From Lachnospiraceae bacterium NE2001 (GTDB lineage: Bacteria; Bacillota; Clostridia; Lachnospirales; Lachnospiraceae): a stretch of DNA of 64,000 nt. The notes below the pieces were generated by a model. The model made no database searches and had not been told where the DNA came from. It saw nothing but the letters and a program-made list of their open reading frames with translations. The stretch is from NCBI GenBank assembly GCA_900110635.1, contig FOEK01000005.1:1-64000 (forward strand), written 5' to 3'. Both the position numbers and the translations under genes were made by a program. Every line of letters begins with the position of its first letter. Positions within the stretch are counted from its first letter, which is position 1. This document shows, piece by piece, positions 178 through 15,526 of this stretch.

Positions 178-246
178 CGTTGCACATAGGCGCTATGCGT
201 GGTAAAATGTCCTTGGGGTTTATATTTACTTTATGGGGATGTGTGT

Positions 247-3200
247 ATGGGTAAGAAGAGGAAACGGCTTGCCATTTTAGTTGGGCAGGCGGATGAAAGC
301 TTTCAGAGTCGTTTTATTTCAGGTTTTACGAAGCAGGCTTTTGAGTTGGGGCGAGATGTCTGCGTTTTTTCTATGTATAAGAAGTATCAGGATACGGTGG
401 ATAGAGAAATGGGTGAGTCCAACATTTTCTCTCTGCTTAATCCTGATTTTTTTGATGGCATTTTAATAATGAAGGATACTATACAGACGGCGGGCCTGGC
501 TGAGCAGATAGAAGAACAGCTGCATAACAGCTACGACGGTCCGGTTCTTATAGTTGATCTTGACAGTAAATATTATAAATCAATCTTTATTGACTGTTAT
601 ACGCCGATTCTGAGACTTACAAATCATTTGATCGAGGATCACAGCGTTAAGGATATTGCTTTTCTAACAGGAAAGAAGAGGCACCGCCATTCGCTTCAAA
701 GACTGGCGGGCTTCAAGGAGTCTATGAAGCGTCACGGTCTTTCTGTTCCGAAAGATCGTATAATCGAGGGTGACTTCTGGTACCTCAGTGGTGAGCAGTG
801 CGTTGAGACACTTATGGCTCAGGACAAGAAGCTTCCTGAGGCGATTGTCTGTGCGAATGATCAGATGGCAATTGGCGTCTGCAAAGCATTTCATGAGAAG
901 GGTGTACGGGTTCCTGAGGATATTCTTGTTGTGGGTGCTGATTCTGTTGAAGAGGGACTCACAAGTCCAAAGATCGTTACGTCCTATAAATCCCCTGCCT
1001 TCGAGCTGGGCGGCTATGCTGTGACCGTTCTCAGGGCTATGAAGAATGGAAATGAGATTCCTGAGTTTGATACCGATGCAGAGCTTATCTATGGCGAAAC
1101 CTGCGGCTGCAACAAGATGACGGAGTCAGGCATTAATATTAGAAGAAAAGATTGGCACACTGAGATATCTGAGGAAGGCTTTGATTCTATAAATAACGTA
1201 ATCTTCGAGAATCTGATGATCCAGAACGACGTGCTGGATTATATCGGCACGGTTTATTCCTATGCCTATCAGATCAAGGGTGCCGAGAGCTTCCACCTCT
1301 GTCTTGTGAAGGAGATTCTGAATCTGGGAGAGAAGGAAGTTCGAAGAAATGATGGTTATGGAAGTGAAATGGTATACGCCATCAGGTACAGCAAGGATCA
1401 GCTGGGGGATATGGTCAGCCTGGATGAGACATTTGACCGTAAGCTTATGCTACCAGAGTTAAATGAATACAGGTCGAGGCCTAGGGCTTTCTTCTTTACA
1501 CCTGTTTTCTTTGAGGATAGATGCTATGGCTACGGTGTTGTCAGCTACGGCGATACGCCTAGAAGCTATGATGATGTATATAGAAGATGGATAAAGGCTA
1601 TATCATTTGGTTTTGAGAATCTCAGCAAGAATATGCAGGTTAAGAACCTCACGGAAGAGGTCAAGCAGGTCAAGTCCTCCAAGTTCGACAAGATTGACGC
1701 TATGTACGACAACCTGTCTCCTGAAGAGAAGAATGATTATACATTGGTAAATGATATCATAGATAATAACCTGTTTAATTATCATTTCCAGCCAATAGTA
1801 AGAGCGAAGGATGGAACTATTTTCTCCTACGAGGCACTCATGAGGTCAAAGACCGAGAGGAGGGTTTCGCCGCTTACTATTCTGAAATATGCCAGTATGC
1901 AGGACCGTTTTCCTGAGATTGAGAGTGCGACCTTTAATAACGTGCTGGATATTATAGGAAAGAGTAAAGAGAATATCGGCGATGCAAAGATATTTATAAA
2001 TAGTATCCCAGGCGTTAAGGTTGATGATCTTGAGGAGGTTACAAAGAAGCTGAAGGCTTGTCACGATAACGTGGTGGTTGAGTTGACTGAGGAGTCGGAG
2101 CTGGATGACAGCAATCTTGAAAGGCTGAAGGAGTACTTTGCAAATCTTGATATTGATGTTGCTGTTGATGATTATGGAACAGGTTATTCAAATATCAGCA
2201 ATCTGCTCAGGTATATGCCGAACTACGTTAAGATAGACAGATCACTTCTAAGCGAGATACAGGACAAGCCGCAGAAGCAGCATTTTGTTCGAGAGATAAT
2301 AGATTTTTGTCACAATAACGATATTATGGCTCTTGCTGAGGGGGTTGAAACCTCTGAGGAATTGAGTCAGGTAATCCATCTGGGCGCGGATCTGATTCAG
2401 GGCTTCTACACTGGTCGCCCGTCACCGGAGTTTGTTGGCCGTATAGATGATAAGATAATAAATGAGATAAAGACCTATTATCAGGAACGAATGGATGGCA
2501 GGGTCAAGAATGTATATATCGCTGGCAAGACGAACAGAGTTGCGCTTATCAGTCTTGCGAAGGATGGCTATTCCGATATAGTAATTGGTAAAGGCGATAT
2601 GGTCTATAACGATATAACCATTATTGGTCTCCCTTCGATGAAGACAGATATGCACCTTCGTATCGAGGCTGGTTATTCGGGTCGTATCATTCTGGAAAAT
2701 GTCTGCTTCTCCAATATCAAGAACAGGCCTTGTATCGAGCTTGGCGAAAACTCGGTTGTAACACTCCAGTTGGAAGGTACTAACGTATTGTATAATACAG
2801 GCATTATGGTTCCTGACTCTGCTGAGTTTACGTTGGAGGGCAGCGGTAGCCTGAAGATAGAACTTACAAATCAGGAGTTCTATGGTATAGGAAATGATGC
2901 GGCATCGAAGCACGGAAATATTACATTTAATAAAGATGGTAATCTGACTATTACGGCCAATGGCACAAAGGGAACATATGTGGGTTCTGGCCTTGGTGGC
3001 AGGATTGAAGTAAGTGGTGGTTCCTACAATATAGAAGGAAATACCACGGAGGGTGTTGTCTTCGGTGCTTTGTATGAGGAGTCAAATGTATCTATAGAAA
3101 AGTGCGGTATCGAGATGGACCTTTCAGGCACCAAGGTTGTGGCTGTGGGTTCTCTGGAGAAGAAGTCCAGTGTTCAGATACAGGATTGTTCCTTAAAATG

Positions 3201-3582
3201 TCTTATCGATGGGCGCGAGGTTGTTGGTATAGGAACACTTTTAGGAGAGAGTTCATTTGTCAAGGTATATAATTCGCTGGTAGATGTAAGCGTAAATGCC
3301 GATATGTGTACCGCGCTGGGTGCTTTAAAGGGTGCAACAGAGCTGGATATCAGTATGGCTTCTGTAAGAGTTACTAATGCCGGAGCAGACGCACTGGCAT
3401 TTGGTGGTAAAGAGGCAGATACCCATATATCCCTCATAGGAGTAGATACCAGAGTAAAGGTTTATAATACTACGGGTGTTGAAACCTATGCCAAGGATGA
3501 AAATATTACTATAGAGAATGGACGCTGTAAGATAGTGGTAAATGACACCGAAATAGAGCGAGAATTAATCTTTAGATTCTAA
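247..3582 (+). CDS. LacI-type sensor / EAL-domain c-di-GMP phosphodiesterase with beta-helix-like C-terminus
   Basis: This protein probably hydrolyses cyclic di-GMP in the cytoplasm in response to a ligand. Residues about 5-290 resemble the LacI/periplasmic-binding-protein type 1 fold (AILVGQADESF, CANDQMAIGV, VVGADSVEEG) and end in GETCGCN; there is no N-terminal HTH. After a middle region of about 200 residues comes an EAL domain at about 508-725. The catalytic signature looks complete: YEALMR, FINSIPG, ELTEE, VDDYGTGYSN, VKIDRS, AEGVETSEE, IQGFYTGRP. Residues about 750-1110 are Gly/Asn/Val-rich short repeats that look like a right-handed beta-helix. I chose the ATG at 247 (MGKKRKR) because GGGGA lies 7 nt upstream; a GTG at 199 would add 16 residues. 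No signal peptide or membrane segment is seen. Activity and ligand are inferred. Confidence 0.85.
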   Translation: MGKKRKRLAILVGQADESFQSRFISGFTKQAFELGRDVCVFSMYKKYQDTVDREMGESNIFSLLNPDFFDGILIMKDTIQTAGLAEQIEEQLHNSYDGPVLIVDLDSKYYKSIFIDCYTPILRLTNHLIEDHSVKDIAFLTGKKRHRHSLQRLAGFKESMKRHGLSVPKDRIIEGDFWYLSGEQCVETLMAQDKKLPEAIVCANDQMAIGVCKAFHEKGVRVPEDILVVGADSVEEGLTSPKIVTSYKSPAFELGGYAVTVLRAMKNGNEIPEFDTDAELIYGETCGCNKMTESGINIRRKDWHTEISEEGFDSINNVIFENLMIQNDVLDYIGTVYSYAYQIKGAESFHLCLVKEILNLGEKEVRRNDGYGSEMVYAIRYSKDQLGDMVSLDETFDRKLMLPELNEYRSRPRAFFFTPVFFEDRCYGYGVVSYGDTPRSYDDVYRRWIKAISFGFENLSKNMQVKNLTEEVKQVKSSKFDKIDAMYDNLSPEEKNDYTLVNDIIDNNLFNYHFQPIVRAKDGTIFSYEALMRSKTERRVSPLTILKYASMQDRFPEIESATFNNVLDIIGKSKENIGDAKIFINSIPGVKVDDLEEVTKKLKACHDNVVVELTEESELDDSNLERLKEYFANLDIDVAVDDYGTGYSNISNLLRYMPNYVKIDRSLLSEIQDKPQKQHFVREIIDFCHNNDIMALAEGVETSEELSQVIHLGADLIQGFYTGRPSPEFVGRIDDKIINEIKTYYQERMDGRVKNVYIAGKTNRVALISLAKDGYSDIVIGKGDMVYNDITIIGLPSMKTDMHLRIEAGYSGRIILENVCFSNIKNRPCIELGENSVVTLQLEGTNVLYNTGIMVPDSAEFTLEGSGSLKIELTNQEFYGIGNDAASKHGNITFNKDGNLTITANGTKGTYVGSGLGGRIEVSGGSYNIEGNTTEGVVFGALYEESNVSIEKCGIEMDLSGTKVVAVGSLEKKSSVQIQDCSLKCLIDGREVVGIGTLLGESSFVKVYNSLVDVSVNADMCTALGALKGATELDISMASVRVTNAGADALAFGGKEADTHISLIGVDTRVKVYNTTGVETYAKDENITIENGRCKIVVNDTEIERELIFRF

Positions 3583-4481: not shown

Positions 4482-4573
4482 TTATTTGTTTGAAATGTTA
4501 TAAATATGATTTGAAAAAAGTTTGAAAAAAGTTTAAAAAAAAATAAAAAAAAATAAAAAAAATTGAAAAATTA

Positions 4574-4604
4574 TGAAACCTTTTTGTGACTTGCCGGGTT
4601 CTAT
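4574..4604 (+). promoter_or_regulatory. Candidate ECF-sigma promoter upstream of vWA lipoprotein
   Basis: TGAAACC at 4574-4580 is followed after 16 nt by GGTTCTATA. This resembles the TGAAAC-N16-CGTC layout of ECF sigma promoters in Bacillota. It also lacks a good TTGACA/TATAAT pair and sits about 35 nt before the ribosome binding site. An ECF sigma gene lies just downstream of the vWA gene, making it a possible regulator. This is an inference from motif and context. Confidence 0.4.
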
Positions 4605-4638
4605 AAGTAGAAAGGCAAAAAACAAGGAGGTTTTTATT

Positions 4639-6387
4639 ATGAGAAAGATAACATTTAAGAGAACTATATCAATGATTATTGCAGCAGGACTTATGACTTC
4701 TGCATTTACAGGTTGTGGTGGATCTTATGAAGCAACAGACTCATCTTCAAGAGAAGAGTCAACAGTTGCATATACAACATCAGATGAAGCATCAGATTCA
4801 GCAACAGAGTCATCAAAGTCAAAGAGGGAAAGCGGTGCTGTTTACGAAACAACAGAAGCTGCTGCTGAGGACTGGGACAACAGTATGACACAGGATGCCT
4901 GGTATGAGGAAGAAGACGAGGATTATGGCTATGATTCCAGAGAGTATGCTCACGTATCTGAGAATGATTTCATCGCAACAAGTGTTGAGTCAACTTCAAC
5001 ATTTTCAGCTGATGTAGATACAGCTTCTTATTCTAACATCAGAAATTATCTGAACAATGGAAATACAGTTCCTGAGGATGCAGTAAGAATAGAAGAAATG
5101 ATCAATTATTTCCACTATGATTATGATGAACCAGCAAAGGGCGAGCCATTTTCAGTAAATATGGAGGTTGATACCTGTCCTTGGAACGAGGATCATCAGC
5201 TGGTTATGATCGGTCTCAAGGCTAAGGCTATCGACACATCAAAGAGAAAGCCTACACATTTTGTATTCCTTATTGATACATCAGGTTCTATGGATGAGCC
5301 AAACAAGCTTCCACTTGTTAAGACTGCTTATATAAAGCTGTTAAATGAATTAGATGAGAACGATACAGTTTCGATCGTTACTTACGCAGGCAGCGACAAG
5401 GTTGTTCTTGAAGGCGAGTGCGGAGCAAATACAGACAAGATCGCTGAAGCTATCGAGAATCTTCAGGCTTATGGCAGCACAAATGGTTCTGCTGGTATCA
5501 ATACAGCATACGATCTGGCTGAGGAATATTTCATCAAGGGCGGCAACAATCGTGTTATCCTTGCAACTGATGGCGACCTCAACGTAGGCGTAACTTCAGA
5601 GGATGGTCTTACAGAGCTGATCACAGAGAAGAAGGAATCTGGTATCTTCCTTAGCGTACTTGGTTTTGGAAATGATAATCTCAAGGACAACAAGCTTGAG
5701 GCACTTGCTGATAATGGTAACGGCAACTATGCATTTATAGACAGCGTTTACGAAGCAAAGCGTGTATTAGTAGAAGAAATGGGTTCAACACTTGAGACTG
5801 TTGCTAAGGATGTAAAGCTTCAGACAACATTTGACGAGAATGTAGTTGAGAAGTATAGACTTATCGGTTATGAGAACAGAATGATGGCAAATGAAGACTT
5901 TGATGATGATTCAGTAGATGGCGGCGAGATTGGATCAGGCCACGAGGTAACAGCACTTTATGAGATCATCCCTACAAAGAACGCTGATTCTTTTGACAAT
6001 CATATTCTTGATCTCTCTATCAGATACAAGGCTCCACAGGCTGACGAGTCTAAGCTTCTTCAGTATTCCTGCAAGTCTACAGGAAAGAGCTTTGATAATA
6101 ATGCCAGCGACAATATGCTCTGGGTTGAGTCAGTTGCAGCACTTGGTATGTTCCTTAAGGACAGCGAGTACAGCGGCGAGAGCTCAGTAGCACTGGCAAG
6201 AAATCTTGCAGAGAAGACCAGCTACAGAGATGATGCACTCAGAGTAGAGTATATGTCACTTCTTGACAAGGTTGAAGACAACTACGGCACAGCATATTCA
6301 GATTACGATGATGATTATGATGATGACTACGATTACTACGACTATGACGATAGTGAGTCAGATGTAAACGAAATCGAGGCAAATTAA
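4639..6387 (+). CDS. YfbK-like von Willebrand factor A lipoprotein
   Basis: This 582-residue lipoprotein has signal MRKITFKRT plus a hydrophobic stretch and lipobox FTGCGG, then a Ser/Thr/Glu-rich linker to about residue 105. A YfbK-type N-terminal vWA-associated region follows (about 110-190, FSADVDTASYSNIR). The vWA domain is at about 200-368 with the MIDAS motif FLIDTSGSM near residue 213 and later ATDGDLNVG. A C-terminal region typical of the family (DUF3520-like) and a very acidic Asp/Tyr tail complete it. The MIDAS motif suggests metal-dependent protein binding at the outer face of the membrane. The start is ATG 4639 after AAGGAGG at 4624-4630. The ECF sigma and its partner gene follow about 400 bp downstream, so a shared envelope role is plausible. 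The partner is unknown. Confidence 0.85.
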   Translation: MRKITFKRTISMIIAAGLMTSAFTGCGGSYEATDSSSREESTVAYTTSDEASDSATESSKSKRESGAVYETTEAAAEDWDNSMTQDAWYEEEDEDYGYDSREYAHVSENDFIATSVESTSTFSADVDTASYSNIRNYLNNGNTVPEDAVRIEEMINYFHYDYDEPAKGEPFSVNMEVDTCPWNEDHQLVMIGLKAKAIDTSKRKPTHFVFLIDTSGSMDEPNKLPLVKTAYIKLLNELDENDTVSIVTYAGSDKVVLEGECGANTDKIAEAIENLQAYGSTNGSAGINTAYDLAEEYFIKGGNNRVILATDGDLNVGVTSEDGLTELITEKKESGIFLSVLGFGNDNLKDNKLEALADNGNGNYAFIDSVYEAKRVLVEEMGSTLETVAKDVKLQTTFDENVVEKYRLIGYENRMMANEDFDDDSVDGGEIGSGHEVTALYEIIPTKNADSFDNHILDLSIRYKAPQADESKLLQYSCKSTGKSFDNNASDNMLWVESVAALGMFLKDSEYSGESSVALARNLAEKTSYRDDALRVEYMSLLDKVEDNYGTAYSDYDDDYDDDYDYYDYDDSESDVNEIEAN

Positions 6388-6390
6388 CTG

Positions 6391-6510
6391 ATATCAAACT
6401 ATAACAAAATAAACTAACAGATATCAAGCTATAACAAAATAAACTAACAGATATCAAACTATAACAAAATAAACTAACAGTTATCAAGCTATAACAAAAT
6501 AAACTAGCAT
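6391..6510. repeat. Four tandem copies of a 30-bp AT-rich unit
   Basis: Four contiguous 30-bp units start at 6391, 6421, 6451 and 6481. The unit is ATATCAA(A/G)CT ATAACAAAAT AAACTAACAG; copies differ at one to three positions. The array begins three bases after the vWA stop codon. There are no spacers, so it is not a CRISPR. An open frame on the minus strand simply translates the repeat. Confidence 0.95.
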
Positions 6511-6808: not shown

Positions 6809-7342
6809 ATGAGTAGTACAGTTTTCACCGTTGATGTGGACCAGGCGGTCCGGCAATACGCGGATATGGTCTACCGACTGGCTGTCTCAAATACCCGAGT
6901 TACGCAGGACGCAGAAGACGTCTTCCAGGAGGTATTTGTAAAGCTTGTGCGGTACAAGGATAAAATTGAAGACGAAGAGCATCTGAAAAACTGGCTTATC
7001 AGAGTAACCATCAACGAAGCACGTCGGATCGAGGGTAGTGGCTGGAAGAAAAATGTCAGCCTGGATACCACAGATGACGATGACGCTGAATGGACTCCGC
7101 CAGATGAAGAAACGGATACAAGTCCGGAAGATGCATTTCTAACAACAGAAAGAAACGAAAGCATTCTCGAAAAAGTAAGAGAGCTTCCTCAAAAATATAG
7201 AGAAGTAATACATCTTCATTTTTATGAGGAAATGAAGATCACAGAAATCTCCCAAATGCTTGGAGTAAATGAAGCCACAGTCAAAACGCGGCTGCGGCGA
7301 GCGAAAGACATCCTCGAAAAAACTTTGAAAGGGGGTATATAA
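6809..7342 (+). CDS. ECF-type RNA polymerase sigma factor
   Basis: A 177-residue sigma-70 family protein of extracytoplasmic-function size. Region 2 is at about residues 10-75 (YADMVYRLAVSNTR, DAEDVFQEVFVKL, NWLIRVTINEARR). An acidic linker of about 30 residues follows. Region 4 with its helix-turn-helix is at about 120-175 (LPQKYREVIHLHFYEEMKITEISQMLGV, TVKTRLRRAKDIL). GGAG lies 6 nt before ATG 6809. The next gene starts one base after the stop, so the two are almost certainly co-translated, as for sigma/anti-sigma pairs. Likely targets include this operon and the vWA lipoprotein upstream, which is an inference. Confidence 0.92.
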   Translation: MSSTVFTVDVDQAVRQYADMVYRLAVSNTRVTQDAEDVFQEVFVKLVRYKDKIEDEEHLKNWLIRVTINEARRIEGSGWKKNVSLDTTDDDDAEWTPPDEETDTSPEDAFLTTERNESILEKVRELPQKYREVIHLHFYEEMKITEISQMLGVNEATVKTRLRRAKDILEKTLKGGI

Positions 7343-7343
7343 T

Positions 7344-8606
7344 ATGTCAAGCTACAAAGAAGAACTGAATAACATACATGCCCCTGAGGATCTTATACTT
7401 AGGACTCTTTCTAGGGTTCACGAAGAGGAACAGAAGGTTCAGGCTGAGAAGGCTCAGATTATGATGAACCAGACTGAAAATGTTGAGACTCAGATGAACC
7501 AGACTGAAAATGCTCAGACAGGAATGAAAGAGGCTGATAATAAGGTTACAAGGTTTTATATAGATGAGTCTTACTCTGGACAGAGTACAGACGCAAATGA
7601 GGATTTTTACTCCCAGTATGGCACTGGCAAAAAACGTGGAAAACTGGGAAGGATAATAGTAACTTTTTCAAGTATTGTCGCTGCTGCGGTGGTGCTTATT
7701 ATAGCAATGAATGCGGGACTTTTTAGGGGTGGTTCTATGGATTCCGCTACAAGCTATGAGACAACCCAGGCTTCGAATGAAGCATCAGATATGTCTACCA
7801 GTGATTCATCTTCTGAAAGGGAGAAATCAAGTAAGACTTCCTCTGGCGCGAGGGAAGAGGCTGCTGCAGATGAAACTATGGAAAGTGCGGATGATGATAT
7901 GAATTATAGTTATGAATCTACAGAGGCTGCAACTGAGGCTTCCTATTCTGATGAGGAATGTGAGACGACAGCCGATGATAGTGCTAAGGATGAAAGACCT
8001 CAGGATGTTGCGCTGGCTGGAGGCTGGCAGGCATCTGAAAGCTCCAGAATTACAGGCGAACTAAGCGAAATATTTGATAAGGGAATAGAGAATTATACAG
8101 GTAATGAATGTACGCCAGTATTTTATCTTGGTTCACAGATAGTATCTGGAACAAATCACGCATTTCTCTGTAAAACCAAGCTTGGTGACGACCAGGATGA
8201 ATATTGGTCAATAGTATATATATATGAAGATCTGGAAGGAAATTGTACCTTTATTGAGTCATCAATTATTGATCTCGCTTTATCCTCAGAGGATACAGTT
8301 GTGCAGAAGAGTTCGGGTGATTCCTCCAATTTAATGGGTGGATGGTCTGCCTGCGAGAACTATGAAATTGATTCAGATGTTAAACCTGCCATAGATGAAG
8401 CAATTGATTCGACATGGGGGGCAGATATTGAGCCAGTGGCAATTCTCGGAAGCCAGGTGGTTGCCGGAAATGTATACGCGGTGCTCTGTCGTGAGACAAG
8501 TAACGCCAGCGATGCCCAGCCTTACTGGTGCATCCTCTACATCTACCGCGACCTGCAGAATAACGGCAGTGTGCTGAACAACGCCACCCTCAGCCTCGCA
8601 AACTAA
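7344..8606 (+). CDS. Probable membrane anti-sigma factor with two cystatin-like repeats
   Basis: The 420-residue protein starts one base after the sigma stop, with GGGGG about 7 nt upstream. Residues 1-100 are cytoplasmic, charged and contain a short duplicated MNQTENV segment. A membrane helix lies at about 102-128. The outside portion starts with about 95 Ser/Glu/Ala/Thr-rich residues, then two related domains at about 226-312 and 332-420. Both begin GGW and carry (L)GSQ(I/V)V(S/A)G, at Q265-G269 and Q371-G375, followed by a Cys strand and YW-x-I-(V/L)YIY. The Q-x-V-x-G loop plus leading Gly and later Trp is the layout of the cystatin fold. The anti-sigma role is inferred from position and topology; the cystatin assignment is by motif only. 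Confidence 0.75.
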   Translation: MSSYKEELNNIHAPEDLILRTLSRVHEEEQKVQAEKAQIMMNQTENVETQMNQTENAQTGMKEADNKVTRFYIDESYSGQSTDANEDFYSQYGTGKKRGKLGRIIVTFSSIVAAAVVLIIAMNAGLFRGGSMDSATSYETTQASNEASDMSTSDSSSEREKSSKTSSGAREEAAADETMESADDDMNYSYESTEAATEASYSDEECETTADDSAKDERPQDVALAGGWQASESSRITGELSEIFDKGIENYTGNECTPVFYLGSQIVSGTNHAFLCKTKLGDDQDEYWSIVYIYEDLEGNCTFIESSIIDLALSSEDTVVQKSSGDSSNLMGGWSACENYEIDSDVKPAIDEAIDSTWGADIEPVAILGSQVVAGNVYAVLCRETSNASDAQPYWCILYIYRDLQNNGSVLNNATLSLAN

Positions 8607-8623
8607 CAATAAAATGGTAACGT

Positions 8624-8650
8624 CAAGACAGGGGACCGTCCTCTGTCTTG
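8624..8650. repeat. Intergenic inverted repeat (CAAGACAGGGGA family)
   Basis: CAAGACAGGGGA pairs with TCCTCTGTCTTG across CCG. The same element occurs in three copies at 27814-27900. It lies only about 20 bp before the transglutaminase-like gene. Confidence 0.8.
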
Positions 8651-8669
8651 GAAATAGTGAAGGGTTAAT

Positions 8670-9920
8670 ATGGAAGATTTTAAGTATAATTTGAAGAAAT
8701 ATTCGGCGCTTATCGGGTGCGGCCTGGTGGCCTGCTTTATGATATTTGCCCTTATTGCCGGAAGAAAACAGCGTGAGGAACGTGAGCGTGAATTGGAAGA
8801 AGAATACAGGCAGGTGCAGGAGGAGCTGGAGAAGGAAACCTTCAGAACCGAGGAGGCAATCTACGAGCATCTGCTGGATTCTATGTTAAATGATGACGCG
8901 GACAACGTGTATATGAGGGTTCCGGGTACATTTAGCAAGGACGACCTGACTGAAATCGCACAAAGAATCGATCCGATGATAGGCAGGGTTGACAGGATGT
9001 CCTATACGGCTTCTACCACGCGGGAGGGTGACGGCCCAGAGGTTGAAGATTACTATGTCGGAGTCAATTATCATTATGAGTTGAGCGACGAGTACTACGT
9101 GCTTGAGAAGATACAGAATGGCAAGGAGATTCCGTCTGATAAGTCAAATGCTATCAAGCTTTGTTCTGTCTCGGAGAAGTTCCTTAGTGATAACATTTTA
9201 CCTGGGATGACTGATTATGATAAGGAGCTGGCGATTCACGATTTTATAGTTGAGAATTGTGAGTATTCCTTTAGCGATGCAAATGATATGTCGGAGTACT
9301 ATGCCTACGGTGCGCTGGTGAATAAAAAGGCGGTTTGTTCTGGTTATGCCAGGGCTACGGCACTTCTTCTGAAATGTTGTGATGTGGATGTAAATCTGAT
9401 ATCTGGCGATGCTGATGATAATACAGGTGATAGTTCTGCAGATGGTGTCAGTGATACAGATGGTCTTATTGCACCGGATGGAACTGTTGTGGATGGTCAT
9501 ATGTGGAATCAGGTGAAGATTGACGGTTTGTGGTATAACCTGGATACAACCTGGGACGACCCCATAGGAGAAACGGAGCTGAGGCATACCTATTTCAATG
9601 TGGATGACTCAATCCTTGGACTTAACCACGAGTGGGATAAGAAAGAGGCAGAGCAGTGCTCCTCAACACTCCAGAACTATTATGAGAAAAATGGCATCTT
9701 TTTTAAGACCAGTTCATCCTTCAAGGATGCACTTAGCGAGTATCTTGCGGCTGGAAATCGAGACGAGTACGAATGTGCCGTTTCATACGTCGATACCAAC
9801 GAAGAGTTTCTGTCATTTATTTTTGATTATGAAGGAATAACAAGCTACCAGGTGGCAACAAGAGGTGAGGAATCTGCTTACCAGATACTCACAATATACT
9901 TTAATCCAGAACCAGAATAA
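8670..9920 (+). CDS. Membrane-anchored transglutaminase-like protein
   Basis: The 416-residue protein has a single N-terminal membrane segment (about residues 11-30), a short Glu/Arg-rich coiled coil (33-60) and an extracellular body. The transglutaminase-core triad is visible: C223 in AVCSGYARA, H277 in GHMWNQV and D292 in LDTTWDDP. This papain-like fold in bacteria includes peptidases as well as crosslinking enzymes, so the reaction is not known. It lies 60 bp downstream of the cystatin-like anti-sigma candidate in the same orientation, with a repeat element between them. A palindromic terminator follows. Cystatins bind papain-like clefts, which makes the neighbour pair notable, but any interaction is speculative. 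Confidence 0.82.
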   Translation: MEDFKYNLKKYSALIGCGLVACFMIFALIAGRKQREERERELEEEYRQVQEELEKETFRTEEAIYEHLLDSMLNDDADNVYMRVPGTFSKDDLTEIAQRIDPMIGRVDRMSYTASTTREGDGPEVEDYYVGVNYHYELSDEYYVLEKIQNGKEIPSDKSNAIKLCSVSEKFLSDNILPGMTDYDKELAIHDFIVENCEYSFSDANDMSEYYAYGALVNKKAVCSGYARATALLLKCCDVDVNLISGDADDNTGDSSADGVSDTDGLIAPDGTVVDGHMWNQVKIDGLWYNLDTTWDDPIGETELRHTYFNVDDSILGLNHEWDKKEAEQCSSTLQNYYEKNGIFFKTSSSFKDALSEYLAAGNRDEYECAVSYVDTNEEFLSFIFDYEGITSYQVATRGEESAYQILTIYFNPEPE

Positions 9921-9956
9921 AAAGTGCAGCGGGGTCTGTCCCCGCTGCACTTTTTT
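9921..9956. terminator. Bidirectional terminator between convergent genes
   Basis: AAAAGTGCAGCGGGG pairs with CCCCGCTGCACTTTT around TCTGT. It serves the plus-strand gene ending at 9920 and the minus-strand gene ending at 9955. The GGGG-TCTGTCCCC core belongs to the same repeat family as 15531-15611 and 55766-55826. Confidence 0.88.
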
Positions 9957-11367
9957 AGTCTTCGTGAAGTGTGGTGATGTAGCTGCCGTCTGTGGCGCTG
10001 ATCAGTACACGTGCGATAGTTTGATAGTTTGAGTTTTGTGCTTCCAGCGACCAGGCTGGTGTAAGCATGTATTCGTTTGAGTTTTCGGTTGGAATAGGGA
10101 AGTAAACCAGATCTATCTTGTCGAATTCTATTTTACCATTTTCCCTCTTTATATCTTCTGATGTCAGGTTTTCTGCTGCAACCTTTGCAAAGCTTTCCAT
10201 AGCCTCGTCGAAGCTGAGGAGAGTAGCGTTATCTGTAACAGTTTCCTGGAACAGGTATTTGGTTGTAACGTCAAGTCCCATAACTCCGTCATCGTTAATG
10301 TACATTACACCAGTTGATAACTGGTCTGCATCTGAATCTATCTTCTCGGTATCCTGCATTATCTTGAGGCCATTTAACGAATCCATAACGCCTACCATAT
10401 AACCGTTACGTACAGCGCCGTCGAGATTCACTGTTTCTAGTGCTGCATCGTTGAAGAAGATAACCTCCAGTCTTTTTGGCTCCTGTCCCTCTGACATAAT
10501 AACGTCGTGCATATTGATATATGGGTCGATGGCTGCTTCCGGAATATCCAGACTCAGATCCTTTAGCAACTGCTGGGCACTGGCTGTAACCTCGTCATTA
10601 CTGAGGGTGCAGGCATTTGGTCTGTCAGACATTATCTCATCTATCTTATATGACTCCAGCTTTTGCAGATAATAATAGAAATTACCATCAGGGCAGGTGT
10701 AGTATGCCCAATCTATACTATCATCACCAACAACTTCGCCTACCTTTTTCGGATAACAGGATATTATAAGCTCGTTATAATTCTTGCTGTATGAAACCAT
10801 AAGCTGGTACTGGATGCCATTTCTTTCGCCTTCGTAAAAATGAAGAAATACGGATGGATCATCGGTATCCAGTGGTACGGAATCGGTAAAATAATTGGTC
10901 TTAACACCGTTATGATACAGAATCCATAGGCTCGTGTTGATGACGTAGCTGGAATCACCGTCGTCATATTTGAGATATTTTTTGTCATCGCTAGCGGTGA
11001 TTCTTTCTGCGGTATCTCCCAGAAGAGTTTTAACGATCGCGTCCTCATCCAGGTTGCTTTCTGAAATGGAATCAACCTTATAAACAGAGAGATTCTGTAA
11101 ATTCTTTGCGTTATAGATGACATTTACAGTTGCATTTTTACCTGCTATTTGAAATGACTTCGATGCCTCTAGTTCTGTGCCTCCCAGCATATCAGTGATG
11201 CCTTTGCCAGCGCTTTCTTCTACGGCGCTTCCGTCTTCACCTTCACTTGTCAAGCTTTCGCTGGTCTGACCGTAGTCGGTGACCTCGGTTGGAGTGCTGC
11301 CACAGCCCGACGTCATTAGCATCAGAGCCAGTGCGAGTCCAACTATCTTTTTGTGTTTCTTAAACAT
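9955..11367 (-). CDS. Predicted lipoprotein of unknown function
   Basis: This 470-residue protein begins MFKKHKKIVGLALALMLM and has a lipobox TSGCGS near residue 22, so it should be exported and lipid-anchored. A Glu/Ser/Thr-rich linker leads to a mixed alpha/beta body with repeated Asp/Tyr-rich stretches (YYTCPDGNFYYYLQ, MLTPAWSLEAQNS). I recognise no catalytic motif. AGGGGAG lies about 6 nt upstream of the ATG on the minus strand. It is monocistronic, convergent with the transglutaminase-like gene and divergent from the next cassette. The C-terminal region resembles families where a lipoprotein body is compared with two-component regulatory partners (YycH/YycI-like), but the similarity is too weak for a name. 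Confidence 0.8.
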   Translation of the reverse strand: MFKKHKKIVGLALALMLMTSGCGSTPTEVTDYGQTSESLTSEGEDGSAVEESAGKGITDMLGGTELEASKSFQIAGKNATVNVIYNAKNLQNLSVYKVDSISESNLDEDAIVKTLLGDTAERITASDDKKYLKYDDGDSSYVINTSLWILYHNGVKTNYFTDSVPLDTDDPSVFLHFYEGERNGIQYQLMVSYSKNYNELIISCYPKKVGEVVGDDSIDWAYYTCPDGNFYYYLQKLESYKIDEIMSDRPNACTLSNDEVTASAQQLLKDLSLDIPEAAIDPYINMHDVIMSEGQEPKRLEVIFFNDAALETVNLDGAVRNGYMVGVMDSLNGLKIMQDTEKIDSDADQLSTGVMYINDDGVMGLDVTTKYLFQETVTDNATLLSFDEAMESFAKVAAENLTSEDIKRENGKIEFDKIDLVYFPIPTENSNEYMLTPAWSLEAQNSNYQTIARVLISATDGSYITTLHED

Positions 11368-11500
11368 AACTGTTCTCCCCTGTTATATAATTTTACAAGA
11401 TAATACATTATAACTTAATTGTAACAAGATTGTATACACATCCACCTTATTTTTTGTTAAAATAATAAAAGTGAGTTACAAAAAATAGGAGGTGTTATTT

Positions 11501-13585
11501 TTGGGGAAGAAAAAAATGAATTATTTTTATGAAGACAATATGAAGGATATAAAGGCTGCAGCCCGTGAATTCTTCAAAAGTCAGAATCTAAAAATGAGTG
11601 ATGATACTATATCTGGTCTTGTGGATGCCATAAATGAGGCGGCCGAGGAGAAGGCCCCTGCAAATGATTATGATTCGAAATATGGCAAACCGTCAAATCT
11701 TGTTTTCTATAAGAAATATTATACATATCAGGCTTTTCTTGAGATACATCCAAAGAATGGGTTGTCCGTTGATGGGTGCTTTGCTAAAGCAATCCTTTAT
11801 ATAATGAACTGGCTTAGAGGCCGTGTTGAGGATGAGCGTCCCGATGTCTATGAGAAATATGAAGGCGTACGTTTCCTGAAGGATGATTATCCTGAGGTGG
11901 AAAAGTTCGCTGATTTTGATATTTCCAAGGTCGACAATATATATGGACTGCCGTTCCTTGATTTTGTAACGGCGTATCTTCCTGATAAGAAGGCCTGGCT
12001 TGCAACCCTTTCTGAATCCAGCAATAATTCTAGTGATCTTCCTGGAAGAGTTTATATATCCGAGTTCTTCTTATATAAAGAAGAGTCATCAGTAGCATTT
12101 GGCATCCGTCATTCCTGTCGGGAGCCGGAGACGAATCTTGAGGATGCTGGAGCAAGGAGAAATGCTTTCGTTTCCAGTATGATCGACGATGAGGACTTCG
12201 CTATTACAGAGAAGGGTATTCCAACAAGCTATGAGTTCAATAAGAAGGCAATCCATATAAATGGTAATTCTGGAACTGAGTGTGAGACTTTGCTGAATCA
12301 GCTTGTTGATTCAGAGTATAGGCAGATGCCGATTATATTTGTTCCAGAAGATTTTTATAAAGATAATCCTGAAGGTATTGATGGCCTGGCTAAGAGTCTT
12401 ATGGCCTATGCCTACGTTTTAGTGTGCGAGGGATCTGCTGGAAAGCTTTTTGGCAAGACCATGAATAATCCTGTTTTTGTTGAGAAGATTCATCAGAATC
12501 AGATCATATATTATCGTACCAGTAAAAATGCTGTCTATCCGACTACATTTTTTAAGGTGGGAGAGCGCGAGGCAGATTCTGATAAAAAGACTGATTCCTC
12601 TGGCGATATCTCTGAGTCAAGTTACACCAGAGTGAATAATGAGGGCAAGTGGCTGATCAAGGACATCAGAGAGATGGGTAAAAATGAGCCTTGCCGCAAG
12701 TACTTTGATTTCAAGGACTATTTCTTCAAGCCGTCCTGGTGGGAGATAAGCAAACAGGAGGAAGGGGAAACTCCTGAGGATTATGAGGAGATTGTTAATT
12801 CCTATAAGCTCCAGATCAGTAAGTTGGAGCAGGATATCGAGCTTCTTAATAAAGATAGTTCTCAGCTTCAAGCACGTGTTACAGAACTGGAAAGTGATAA
12901 GAAGGAACTCAATAAAGAGAATACAAGAATTAATGGTCTGCTGAATAAGGCTCAGACTGATCTGATTGATGCGACAACTGATCTTACTAGTTCAAATGAT
13001 GAACTTAAGGAAACCAAAGATGATCTGGCTGAGACGCAGAAAAAGCTTGATGGCCTGATGGGTTCTATCAAGGATATATATGAACCGTTACTTAATCTTC
13101 CTGTGCTGGATAATAGTCACAAAGAGGATATTCTTAAATGGATTGAAAAGTATTATTCTAATGAGATTATAATTCTTCCAAGTGCTGAGAAATCATTTTA
13201 CAAGGATGGAAGACCGGTGGATATGAGGAAGGTTTGCATGTATATGCATTATCTTGCTGGTTATACCAGGTATAGACAGGCTGGTGGTCCGGCACTGAAT
13301 AAGAAAGCGGCCCGGGAATATGATCCTGAAAACTATGGAACGACCATAGAGTTTTCTTCCTCTGGTGAGGGGGCTGCCAAGAGCGATAAAGAAGCATACA
13401 CAATGACCTACCAGGGAGCTGATGGTAAAACAAAGAGTGAAATAATGGATCTTCACATTAAGTCTGGTCAAGGCAGGGATGCGGGTTCCATCAGGGTTAT
13501 GCTTCATTACGATGATAAGCTGAAAAAATCGGTGGTAGGACTATTGCTTGGTGAACATCTGCCTACGGCTAGCAATCCGCACTAA
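11501..13585 (+). CDS. Coiled-coil protein of unknown function in HerA-like cassette
   Basis: A soluble protein of about 694 residues with no signal peptide or membrane segment. Residues 1-425 are an alpha/beta region I do not recognise, with a possible N-terminal helical bundle (DIKAAAREFFKSQ). Residues about 429-525 form a long coiled coil rich in Leu/Lys/Glu/Asp heptads. A C-terminal domain of about 165 residues ends VVGLLLGEHLPTASNPH. The start is probably TTG 11501 (MGKKKMNYF), because TAGGAGG at 11486-11492 is 8 nt upstream. The ATG at 11516 would be 23 nt away. It is followed 19 bp later by a zinc-ribbon gene and then a HerA-like ATPase, so the three probably work together. The function is unknown. 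Confidence 0.7.
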   Translation: MGKKKMNYFYEDNMKDIKAAAREFFKSQNLKMSDDTISGLVDAINEAAEEKAPANDYDSKYGKPSNLVFYKKYYTYQAFLEIHPKNGLSVDGCFAKAILYIMNWLRGRVEDERPDVYEKYEGVRFLKDDYPEVEKFADFDISKVDNIYGLPFLDFVTAYLPDKKAWLATLSESSNNSSDLPGRVYISEFFLYKEESSVAFGIRHSCREPETNLEDAGARRNAFVSSMIDDEDFAITEKGIPTSYEFNKKAIHINGNSGTECETLLNQLVDSEYRQMPIIFVPEDFYKDNPEGIDGLAKSLMAYAYVLVCEGSAGKLFGKTMNNPVFVEKIHQNQIIYYRTSKNAVYPTTFFKVGEREADSDKKTDSSGDISESSYTRVNNEGKWLIKDIREMGKNEPCRKYFDFKDYFFKPSWWEISKQEEGETPEDYEEIVNSYKLQISKLEQDIELLNKDSSQLQARVTELESDKKELNKENTRINGLLNKAQTDLIDATTDLTSSNDELKETKDDLAETQKKLDGLMGSIKDIYEPLLNLPVLDNSHKEDILKWIEKYYSNEIIILPSAEKSFYKDGRPVDMRKVCMYMHYLAGYTRYRQAGGPALNKKAAREYDPENYGTTIEFSSSGEGAAKSDKEAYTMTYQGADGKTKSEIMDLHIKSGQGRDAGSIRVMLHYDDKLKKSVVGLLLGEHLPTASNPH

Positions 13586-13604
13586 TAAACGTTGGGGGTT
13601 AGCT

Positions 13605-13859
13605 ATGATTAAAATACCTGAAAACTTGATAGATGTGGAGTGCCCTGACTGCGGCACTATGCATAGAATAGATATAGACAAGCAGCCTGGCCATTGCCAG
13701 ATATGTGGCCGCCTGCTGAGATATAATAAGGTTACAATGGAGATTGAGCCAGGGGCTGGGGAGGAGGCTGATATCATTCTCACACAGTATGAACAGCAGC
13801 GTCGCCGCCAGCAGTTTGGTTCTCCAAAAGATGACAAAAGATTTAATAGTAGGAGGTAA
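13605..13859 (+). CDS. Small zinc-ribbon protein
   Basis: An 84-residue protein with two Cys pairs, VECPDCG near residues 9-14 and HCQICGRLL near 30-36, which can bind one zinc. The rest is polar and ends in an Arg/Gln-rich tail. The start is ATG 13605 with GGGGG at 13594-13598. It lies 19 bp after the coiled-coil gene and 2 bp before the HerA-like gene, whose ribosome binding site overlaps its stop codon. This arrangement implies one transcript. It may be a recruitment or adaptor subunit; that is inference. Confidence 0.75.
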   Translation: MIKIPENLIDVECPDCGTMHRIDIDKQPGHCQICGRLLRYNKVTMEIEPGAGEEADIILTQYEQQRRRQQFGSPKDDKRFNSRR

Positions 13860-13861
13860 GT

Positions 13862-15526
13862 ATGTATTACGAGGGAAATGTATGGATAGGTAATAACGAT
13901 GCGGGAGAGAAGATAACACTTCTTCCAAAGATGGCAAATCGTCACGGCCTTGTAGCTGGTGCCACAGGTACTGGTAAGACTGTTACGCTTAAGGTTCTGG
14001 CTGAAAGCTTTTCAGATATGGGCGTGCCTGTATTTATGGCCGATGTGAAGGGGGATATCGCTGGAATCAGCATCCCTGGCGATGACAGCGAGAATATGCA
14101 GGAGCGTATCGCGAGATTTGGTCTTGCTGAGGCGGGTTTTGCATTTAAAGGTTATCCTGTAACTTTATGGGATATTTACGGAGAGAAGGGTGTAACACTT
14201 CGTACAACTATTTCCGAGATTGGTCCGCTGCTTCTTGCTCGTCTTATGGAGCTGAACGAGCTTCAGTCTGACATTTTATCTATAGTATTTAAGATTGCAG
14301 ACGACAACAGCCTGCTTCTTATAGATACTAAGGATCTCAAGTCCATGCTCAACTATGTGTCCGAGCATAACTCTGAGTTCGAGGCTCAGTATGGTAAAAT
14401 GAGTCCGCAGTCCATAGCTGCCATAGTACGTGCCCTTGTTTCCCTGGAGGTTGCTGGCGGCGACAAGTTCTTTGGCGAGCCTGCTGTAAATATAATGGAC
14501 TTCTTTACATTTGGCGATGCTGGAAAGGGTATGATAAATGTCCTGGATAGCTCAAGTCTTATCAACAATACCAAGCTATACTCCACGTTCCTGCTTTACC
14601 TTCTGTCCGAGCTCTTCGAGAGACTTCCTGAGGTGGGAGATATGGAGAAGCCTAAAATGGTATTCTTCTTTGATGAGGCACATTTACTATTTAAAGATGC
14701 ACCTAAGGCGCTCCTTGAAAAGATTGAGCAGGTGGTTAAGCTCATACGTTCAAAGGGTGTGGGTGTATACTTCTGCACACAGAATCCTAGAGATATTCCG
14801 GATGGTGTTCTGGCTCAGCTGGGTAACAAGATACAGCACGGACTTCGTGCATATACACCTTCCGACCAGAAGGCTGTTAAGGCTGCGGCTGAGTCATATA
14901 GAGAAAATCCTGCATTTAACACCTATGATACAATACTGAATCTTGGAACAGGAGAAGCAGTGATATCACTTCTTGGAGCGGACGGTATTCCAACTGTTGC
15001 TGAGAAGGTTTATATACTTCCTCCACAGTCAAACTTTGGCTCTATTTCAGACAGTCAGAGAGATACACTGATCAAGTCCAGCATCTGCTACAGCAAATAC
15101 ATAGAGGCTTATGATCCTGATTCGGCTTATGAGTTCCTTGAGAGACGCGGGATCGAAGAGGCTGAAGCTCTTGCAAAAGCAAAGGAAGAAGGTGAGGCTG
15201 CAAAACAGCGTGAGAAGGAAGAAAAGGAAGCTGCAAAGCAGGCTGAAAAAGAAGAGCGTGAGGCTGCTCGTGCAGCTGAAAAGGCAGAACGAGAGGCTGC
15301 CCGTAAAGCAGAAGCTGAGGCAAAGGCTGCTCAGCGTGAGAAAGAGAAGGAAGAGGCTGCAAAGAAGCGTGCTGCTAAATCTGTTGGAAATACCATTACA
15401 GGCACAGTTGGCCGTGAGGTAGGAAAGACAGTTGGCGGCAAGTTTGGAAAGTTTGGCAAGACCCTTGGCGGCAATGTAGGCGCCAGCCTGGGCCGAGGCC
15501 TGTTTTCAACACTCTTCAGCAAATAA
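13862..15526 (+). CDS. HerA/YjgR-like (DUF853) ATPase
   Basis: A 554-residue P-loop ATPase of the HerA-FtsK clan, closest in layout to E. coli YjgR. Walker A GATGTGKT is at residues 33-40 and Walker B KMVFFFDEAH near 266-276. Family signatures include MADVKGDIAG and FCTQNPRDIPD. Residues about 425-500 are an extreme Ala/Glu/Lys/Arg helix, followed by a Gly-rich tail (VGREVGKTVGGKFGKFGK) also seen in YjgR-type proteins. AGGAGG overlaps the previous stop. HerA-like proteins form hexameric DNA pumps in repair and in several defence systems, but the YjgR branch has no settled role. The cassette context with a coiled-coil and a zinc-ribbon protein is unusual to my knowledge. Confidence 0.85.
   Translation: MYYEGNVWIGNNDAGEKITLLPKMANRHGLVAGATGTGKTVTLKVLAESFSDMGVPVFMADVKGDIAGISIPGDDSENMQERIARFGLAEAGFAFKGYPVTLWDIYGEKGVTLRTTISEIGPLLLARLMELNELQSDILSIVFKIADDNSLLLIDTKDLKSMLNYVSEHNSEFEAQYGKMSPQSIAAIVRALVSLEVAGGDKFFGEPAVNIMDFFTFGDAGKGMINVLDSSSLINNTKLYSTFLLYLLSELFERLPEVGDMEKPKMVFFFDEAHLLFKDAPKALLEKIEQVVKLIRSKGVGVYFCTQNPRDIPDGVLAQLGNKIQHGLRAYTPSDQKAVKAAAESYRENPAFNTYDTILNLGTGEAVISLLGADGIPTVAEKVYILPPQSNFGSISDSQRDTLIKSSICYSKYIEAYDPDSAYEFLERRGIEEAEALAKAKEEGEAAKQREKEEKEAAKQAEKEEREAARAAEKAEREAARKAEAEAKAAQREKEKEEAAKKRAAKSVGNTITGTVGREVGKTVGGKFGKFGKTLGGNVGASLGRGLFSTLFSK

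Follow-up and report, generated by a model that had tools for sequence, protein, structure and literature searches.

The anti-sigma factor RsiV acts as a receptor by plugging the active site of an enzyme, and this binding leads to its site-1 cleavage by signal peptidase (from excerpts of PMC5014341). A locus of comparable design is found in Lachnospiraceae bacterium NE2001, within the first 64,000 nucleotides of contig FOEK01000005.1 (hereafter the window, meaning this whole stretch of DNA), where a gene for an extracytoplasmic function (ECF) sigma factor, P0003, directly precedes one for a membrane anti-sigma-like protein, P0001, with two cystatin-like outer domains. Like RsiV/SigV of Bacillus subtilis, it combines an ECF sigma factor with a membrane anti-sigma protein that has an apparent active-site-filling inhibitor outside. 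RsiV, however, binds lysozyme by a different domain, whereas P0001 carries tandem cystatin-like domains whose ligand we infer (same excerpts of PMC5014341).

In 2009, Kordis and Turk described stefins of bacteria, Clostridia among them, as rare, patchily distributed inhibitors that may defend bacteria in hosts (PMC2784779). The excerpts of that account place the cystatin superfamily in bacteria, as we do here, and contain no sigma or anti-sigma factor. The explanation that we favor, at somewhat less than an even chance, is that the locus encodes a two-gene ECF sigma/anti-sigma switch of the RsiV kind, in which a cystatin wedge would receive a papain-like (C1) protease, both ligand and signaling being putative. 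It draws on the computed anatomy, predicted fold, motif conservation, gene linkage and exchange of outer domains.

Anatomy and predicted fold of the anti-sigma-like protein

The sigma factor gene (6809..7342, plus strand; 177 aa) matches Sigma70_r2 (E 4.5e-10) and Sigma70_r4_2 (E 1.5e-15), and its match to the sigma70-ECF model TIGR02937 (1.2e-27) is above cut-off. A gap of 1 nt separates its stop from the start of P0001 (7344..8606, plus strand; 420 aa), which has about 100 residues ahead of its only hydrophobic segment; beyond this come a linker and two domains spanning residues 224-306 (8013..8261) and 330-413 (8331..8582). The hydrophobic segment, about residues 104-122 (7653..7709), is a predicted transmembrane (TM) segment with a Kyte-Doolittle window mean of 2.77. 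P0001 is encoded right after an ECF sigma gene and has one TM segment and an N-terminus that we take to be cytosolic, as in ECF anti-sigma proteins; by this anatomy it is probably one of them, its anti-sigma function and membrane orientation being presumed. Profiles add little to its identity: there is no Pfam match above cut-off (AEP1 alone appears, at E 0.069) and none in NCBIfam or among PDB sequences, and neither Pfam nor NCBIfam detects a known anti-sigma domain. The outer domain of RsiV (DUF3298/DUF4163) gives no Pfam match in P0001.

The landmarks from which a first-pass annotation of this DNA had read two outer domains are all in place, with GGW at residues 226 and 332, QIVSG at 265-269 (8136..8150, plus strand) and QVVAG at 371-375 (8454..8468, plus strand). 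AlphaFold2 models of the domain pair (pLDDT 89.0, pTM 0.84) and of domain 2 alone (pLDDT 88.3, pTM 0.78) predict a strand followed by a helix and four strands, with the helix packed on an antiparallel sheet as in the cystatin fold. Searching the PDB with Foldseek returned three matches for the domain pair at E 0.001 or better, namely a phytocystatin, fetuin-B and potato multicystatin, with TM-scores below 0.4. For domain 2 alone, the first ten matches are all cystatins, stefins or fetuin-B, and the cystatin likeness proposed earlier is thus borne out by prediction (pLDDT 88-89, with the whole Foldseek top ten in the cystatin superfamily). Phytocystatins, tick cystatins and stefins (PDB 3ima, 3lh4, 7pk4, 2w9p, 6i1m) share with P0001 the predicted fold and, by profile, the QxVxG stretch, but just 15-21% identity to a P0001 domain in the Foldseek alignments, and inhibition by P0001 is putative.

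Profile searches lead to the same superfamily. Run against the PDB at E up to 10, a profile built from the two-domain rows of 24 relatives picked out nine sequences, all of them cystatins (best E 0.047). When the 24 rows were scanned at E up to 10, 15 touched SQAPI (best 2.4e-06) and 11 touched Cystatin (best 0.0014), and among 69 relatives' rows at E up to 0.01, Cystatin was touched by 29 (best 1.1e-07) and SQAPI by 23. The P0001 domains themselves match neither PF00031 nor PF16845 in Pfam; of nine relatives scored singly against these two models, six touch one or both, all under cut-off, and three touch neither. Because several weak results all point one way, a cystatin-superfamily fold is very likely for the outer domains of P0001, as judged from profile, predicted fold and wedge motif.

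Conservation of the wedge motif was assessed in 66 domains from 33 proteins, gathered by searches with P0001 and not by motif. The P0001 repeats and the relatives' domains build one profile, so that the repeats go beyond chance. The five best conserved columns are the glycine of QxVxG (62 domains), the asparagine two positions after it (61), and a helix alanine, the N-terminal glycine and the glutamine (60 each). Strict QxVxG is present in 53 of the 66 domains, and 30 of the 33 proteins have it at least once; both P0001 domains carry it in the first hairpin, and their N-terminal glycines are G226 and G332. The second hairpin element is DLxGN, with L297 and G299 conserved in an alignment partly selected by motif: its relatives were fetched with QVVAG-like patterns, so the ranks are partly circular. 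As modeled, P0001 has the wedge elements N-terminal glycine, QxVxG hairpin and DLxGN hairpin, and lacks the PW dipeptide known from animal cystatins. The later YW that had been counted toward the cystatin layout is indeed present, at residues 287-288 and 394-395, but it sits in a beta strand (286-295 in domain 1) and not in the second hairpin.

Exchange of the outer part and linkage to sigma genes

At E 1e-40, 13 of the 61 genus genomes have an orthologue of the sigma factor. We compared 14 orthologous anti-sigma proteins, including that of the window and that of L092, a locus with a weaker sigma match. The arrangement of sigma and anti-sigma gene is kept in all 14 pairs, with an N-terminus common to all and C-termini that are exchanged: the outer part is a cystatin pair in five, belongs to two other kinds in five and three, and is lost at a contig end in one. 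An exchangeable outer part on a constant inner part is as expected of a sensor. Two changes are needed to explain the cystatin label on the tree of sigma factors, and a single gain is found in 23% of bootstrap trees. Among the five orthologous cystatin fusions, QxVxG is kept in domain 2 of all five and in domain 1 of three.

The five orthologues at L085-L087, L089 and L090 have, in place of the cystatin pair, an outer domain of roughly 100 residues that by our reading starts with YSxYLGxDL; no Pfam family came above cut-off for this domain in the three that were scanned (L085, L086, L090).

That orthologues swap the outer domain for non-cystatin ones also favors a reading in which the domains keep the cystatin fold but belong to a set of interchangeable outer parts and sense something other than a protease, be it a glycan, a peptide or the cell wall. 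The altered QxVxG in domain 1 of two orthologues points in the same direction. The hairpin-tip motif, however, ranks with the most conserved positions of the set that was not chosen by motif, and it would be needless for a mere scaffold. We consider this alternative unlikely, if far from negligible.

Bacteria of the gut and rumen, mostly Clostridia as judged from genome record titles, commonly have the cystatin-like domain. A wider pattern scan gave at least 407 confirmed stretches, the best 80 of which were used, and viral contigs gave one pattern match and no relative. Among 87 cystatin proteins classified, 66 are lipoprotein-like, 12 carry a signal or TM segment at the N-terminus, four have neither and five show anti-sigma topology, the last being the five orthologues only. 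The abundance of lipoproteins would suit domains that form a surface-displayed protease shield, with no signaling role on the anti-sigma protein, and defensive inhibitors were proposed by Kordis and Turk (excerpts of PMC2784779). Against such a shield stand the fusion to an anti-sigma protein and the repeated occurrence of the lipoproteins near sigma genes that belong to several groups, and we regard it as quite unlikely. Four cystatin-like domains in two pairs are found at L100, L103, L173 and L192, which suggests duplication of the pair.

Linkage to sigma genes was counted in six frames at 101 loci (31 from searches with P0001, 70 from the wider scan), which together hold 103 distinct cystatin frames. 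This count replaced one based on longest open reading frames (16 sigma genes within 2 kb, none beyond), in which spurious longer frames hid sigma genes. A sigma frame lies within 2.5 kb at 26 of the 101 cystatin loci, four of which are orthologues of the window operon. There are 28 such frames, 27 of them on the same strand; the sigma gene is in two frames at L119 and L147, and the sole opposite-strand frame, a weak one at L175, may be spurious. The outer flanks of the cystatin loci, 665 kb in all, hold one sigma match. About 1.6 sigma genes would be expected in the inner flanks, as estimated from 111 Sigma70_r4_2 matches in ten genus genomes with a detector that differs from that of the linkage count. 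The loci are related and 70 were picked by likeness to partly sigma-linked rows, so exact odds mean little; what stands is the contrast between inner and outer flanks within the same loci.

The 16 linked sigma proteins that were compared form four groups with at most 39% identity between groups: the window's orthologues; L095, L103, L119, L125, L152, L153, L158 and L159; L108, L169 and L197; and L187. The gene order is sigma, anti-sigma, lipoprotein at L095, L103 and L125, and lipoprotein, sigma, anti-sigma at L119, L152 and L153. On the anti-sigma proteins, DUF4367 exceeds its cut-off at L108 and L119, narrowly misses it at L103 and L152, and is not seen at L095; it is also weakly present on the L119 lipoprotein itself, and its occurrence at such loci speaks for sensing of a ligand other than a protease. 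Among the Pfam families listed for 155 immediate neighbors (orthologous operons left out), Sigma70_r2 ranks top with eight, and transglutaminase is absent from the families listed (25 of 101 and 25 of 99). At L119 (3120-5569), genes for a cystatin lipoprotein, a sigma factor and an anti-sigma protein follow one another; the sigma gene there is divided between two frames, possibly as a broken copy or by sequencing error.

A broader proposal, which we find possible but doubtful, is that, in gut Clostridia, ECF sigma switches use cystatin wedges on the outside as sensors or co-sensors. The cleft-filling inhibitor domain would then be a receptor for papain-like proteases, either fused to the anti-sigma protein or provided as operon lipoproteins with several sigma groups.

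The transglutaminase-like neighbor and C1 proteases

The gene next to P0001, on the same strand with 63 nt between, encodes a transglutaminase-like (TG) protein, P0002 (8670..9920, plus strand; 416 aa). As the first-pass annotation had it, this protein is membrane-anchored, with one N-terminal hydrophobic segment, a Transglut_core match at E 1.1e-13 and the triad C223, H277 and D292 within CSGYARA, DGHMW and NLDTTWDD. It had further been proposed that the cystatin-like anti-sigma protein and the TG-like protein form an inhibitor-enzyme or sensor pair. In favor of such a pair are the close adjacency, with no terminator-like site listed in a plus-strand scan from 8606 to 8670, the intact triad, and a TG homologue somewhere in all five carriers, that is, the genus genomes with a cystatin-bearing anti-sigma protein, the window's included. 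However, 53 of the 61 genus genomes have a TG homologue (E 1e-20), and these include 48 of the 56 non-carriers. The TG gene is near the cystatin-bearing anti-sigma gene in none of the four other carriers (13 kb fetched), and it is absent from the fetched flanks of all 101 cystatin loci. In the other carriers the homologue lies 838 kb off (G153, a one-contig genome) or on another contig (the remaining three). Of the outcomes named beforehand as refuting the pair, lack of gene co-occurrence is thus what was seen, and the predicted cystatin-like fold speaks in favor of the annotation. We give the pair scarcely any credence, and the TG protein was rejected as the cystatin partner on gene content and position. 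What stands of the earlier proposal is the cystatin-like outer domains on an anti-sigma-like protein directly behind an ECF sigma gene, and what falls is the transglutaminase pairing.

The gene order around TG homologues offers an explanation for the adjacency. In the two close relatives G153 and G156, the TG gene lies behind maf and convergent to a homologue of the lipoprotein gene LP470, with a HerA-like ATPase gene beyond. The window has TG, LP470 (9955..11367, minus strand; DUF6034 7.7e-08) and a HerA-like gene (13862-15526) in this same order behind the anti-sigma gene, with extra genes between the last two. An LP470 homologue adjoins the TG homologue, not the anti-sigma gene, in L220 and L221. 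From the order behind maf, the block carrying TG therefore probably moved, and its place beside the anti-sigma gene is most simply an accident of that move; an assembly join error would look the same. The TG-like protein is thus probably a bystander. The window intervals 8606-8670 and 8670-15526 mark a likely rearrangement junction, and a terminator-like hairpin with a 16-pair stem (9919..9955, scored on the minus strand) lies between the convergent TG and LP470 genes.

On the other side of the operon, a gene for a YfbK-like VWA lipoprotein (4573..6387, plus strand; Pfam YfbK_C 9.3e-43, vWF_A 3.9e-39, VWA 2.2e-17) is the upstream member of a VWA-sigma-anti-sigma neighborhood. A VWA homologue precedes the orthologous sigma gene at eight of 13 fetched orthologous loci (L080, L082, L085-L090). 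The interval between the VWA and sigma genes is the site of a tandem array with a 30-bp unit (6381-6506; 4.2 copies, 93% matches). Farther upstream, 199-3582 encodes a large protein with LacI-type sugar-binding and EAL domains, and in G153 (L081) a protein with a similar N-terminus sits directly before the sigma gene.

Papain-like proteases are candidates of another kind. All five carriers have a single Peptidase_C1 match, each within an open frame of 550-572 aa; that of the window genome lies away from the P0001 locus and has C1 and Lectin_like behind a hydrophobic N-terminus. The same C1 and Lectin_like make-up is seen in a protease at L109 (5118-9069), where it is accompanied by choline-binding repeats and lies, on the same strand, about 30 bp upstream of a cystatin-like protein likewise equipped with choline-binding repeats. 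This single case is suggestive of a possible protease-inhibitor operon. Staphostatins are likewise bacterial inhibitors encoded beside a papain-like protease, with a different fold; unlike the P0001 locus, they come without a sigma factor.

The single C1 match per carrier and the resemblance of the window genome's copy to the L109 protease would agree with a switch that watches the cell's own surface proteolysis, with the genome's only C1 protease as ligand and its level setting the switch. Against this, the C1 gene was not found beside the anti-sigma gene in any of the five carriers, and C1 matches are found in 36 of the 40 genus genomes without a cystatin domain. This variant appears very unlikely to us.

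The proposed switch and its meaning

Several results weigh against an RsiV-like switch with a protease-binding cystatin wedge. The top ten Foldseek matches of domain 2 have a best E of 0.0027, with none at 0.001 or better, and query TM-scores of just 0.48-0.59. The two-domain part of P0001 matched no Pfam family at E up to 10. The Pfam Cystatin model matched none of 150 family genomes, which is not proof of absence, as 14 control genomes were silent too. In two of the five orthologues (L081, L084), the QxVxG of domain 1 is lost or altered. At 75 of the 101 cystatin loci a sigma gene within 2.5 kb is absent, at some through contig ends. The promoter pattern GAAAC-N15-18-CGT has two matches across the whole window, neither preceding the operon, and upstream of the operon in the window and 12 relatives' loci there are two sporadic matches (L084, L088) and none in common. 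A C1 gene is found in the flanks of only two of the 101 loci, the copy at L185 being 1.5 kb away on the other strand. Finally, C1 matches in 57 of 61 genus genomes, comprising 21 of 21 with a cystatin domain and 36 of 40 without, are not informative; a near-universal C1 in the genus is an opportunity, not an association.

In the switch that we favor, the N-terminus of P0001 would hold the sigma factor at the membrane and thereby probably restrain a response to stress. The cystatin wedge might then dock in the cleft of a cell-surface papain-like cysteine protease, either the cell's own C1 protease or a foreign one. Docking would expose the anti-sigma protein to stepwise cleavage, by which the sigma factor would be freed to act on its putative regulon. 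Cystatin lipoproteins beside other sigma genes may act as a shield or as co-sensors of similar responses, and the TG-like neighbor would remain outside the switch. By analogy, an anti-sigma factor whose cystatin wedge binds a papain-like protease would fit the logic of RsiV.

Bacterial stefins are already known, and the part that may be new is an anti-sigma factor of the RsiV-like, inhibitor-domain type whose outer part is cystatin-like. No cystatin domain fused or linked to an anti-sigma factor is among the literature matches listed, which are open-access only. If our reading is true, the cystatin-bearing anti-sigma protein would be the cysteine-protease counterpart of the RsiV-lysozyme receptor, and RsiV would be no one-off. 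Bacterial cystatins, so far proposed as a means of defense (excerpts of PMC2784779), would gain a second role. Inhibitor domains used as enzyme receptors would then be a general design of bacterial surface sensing, directed here at cysteine proteases.

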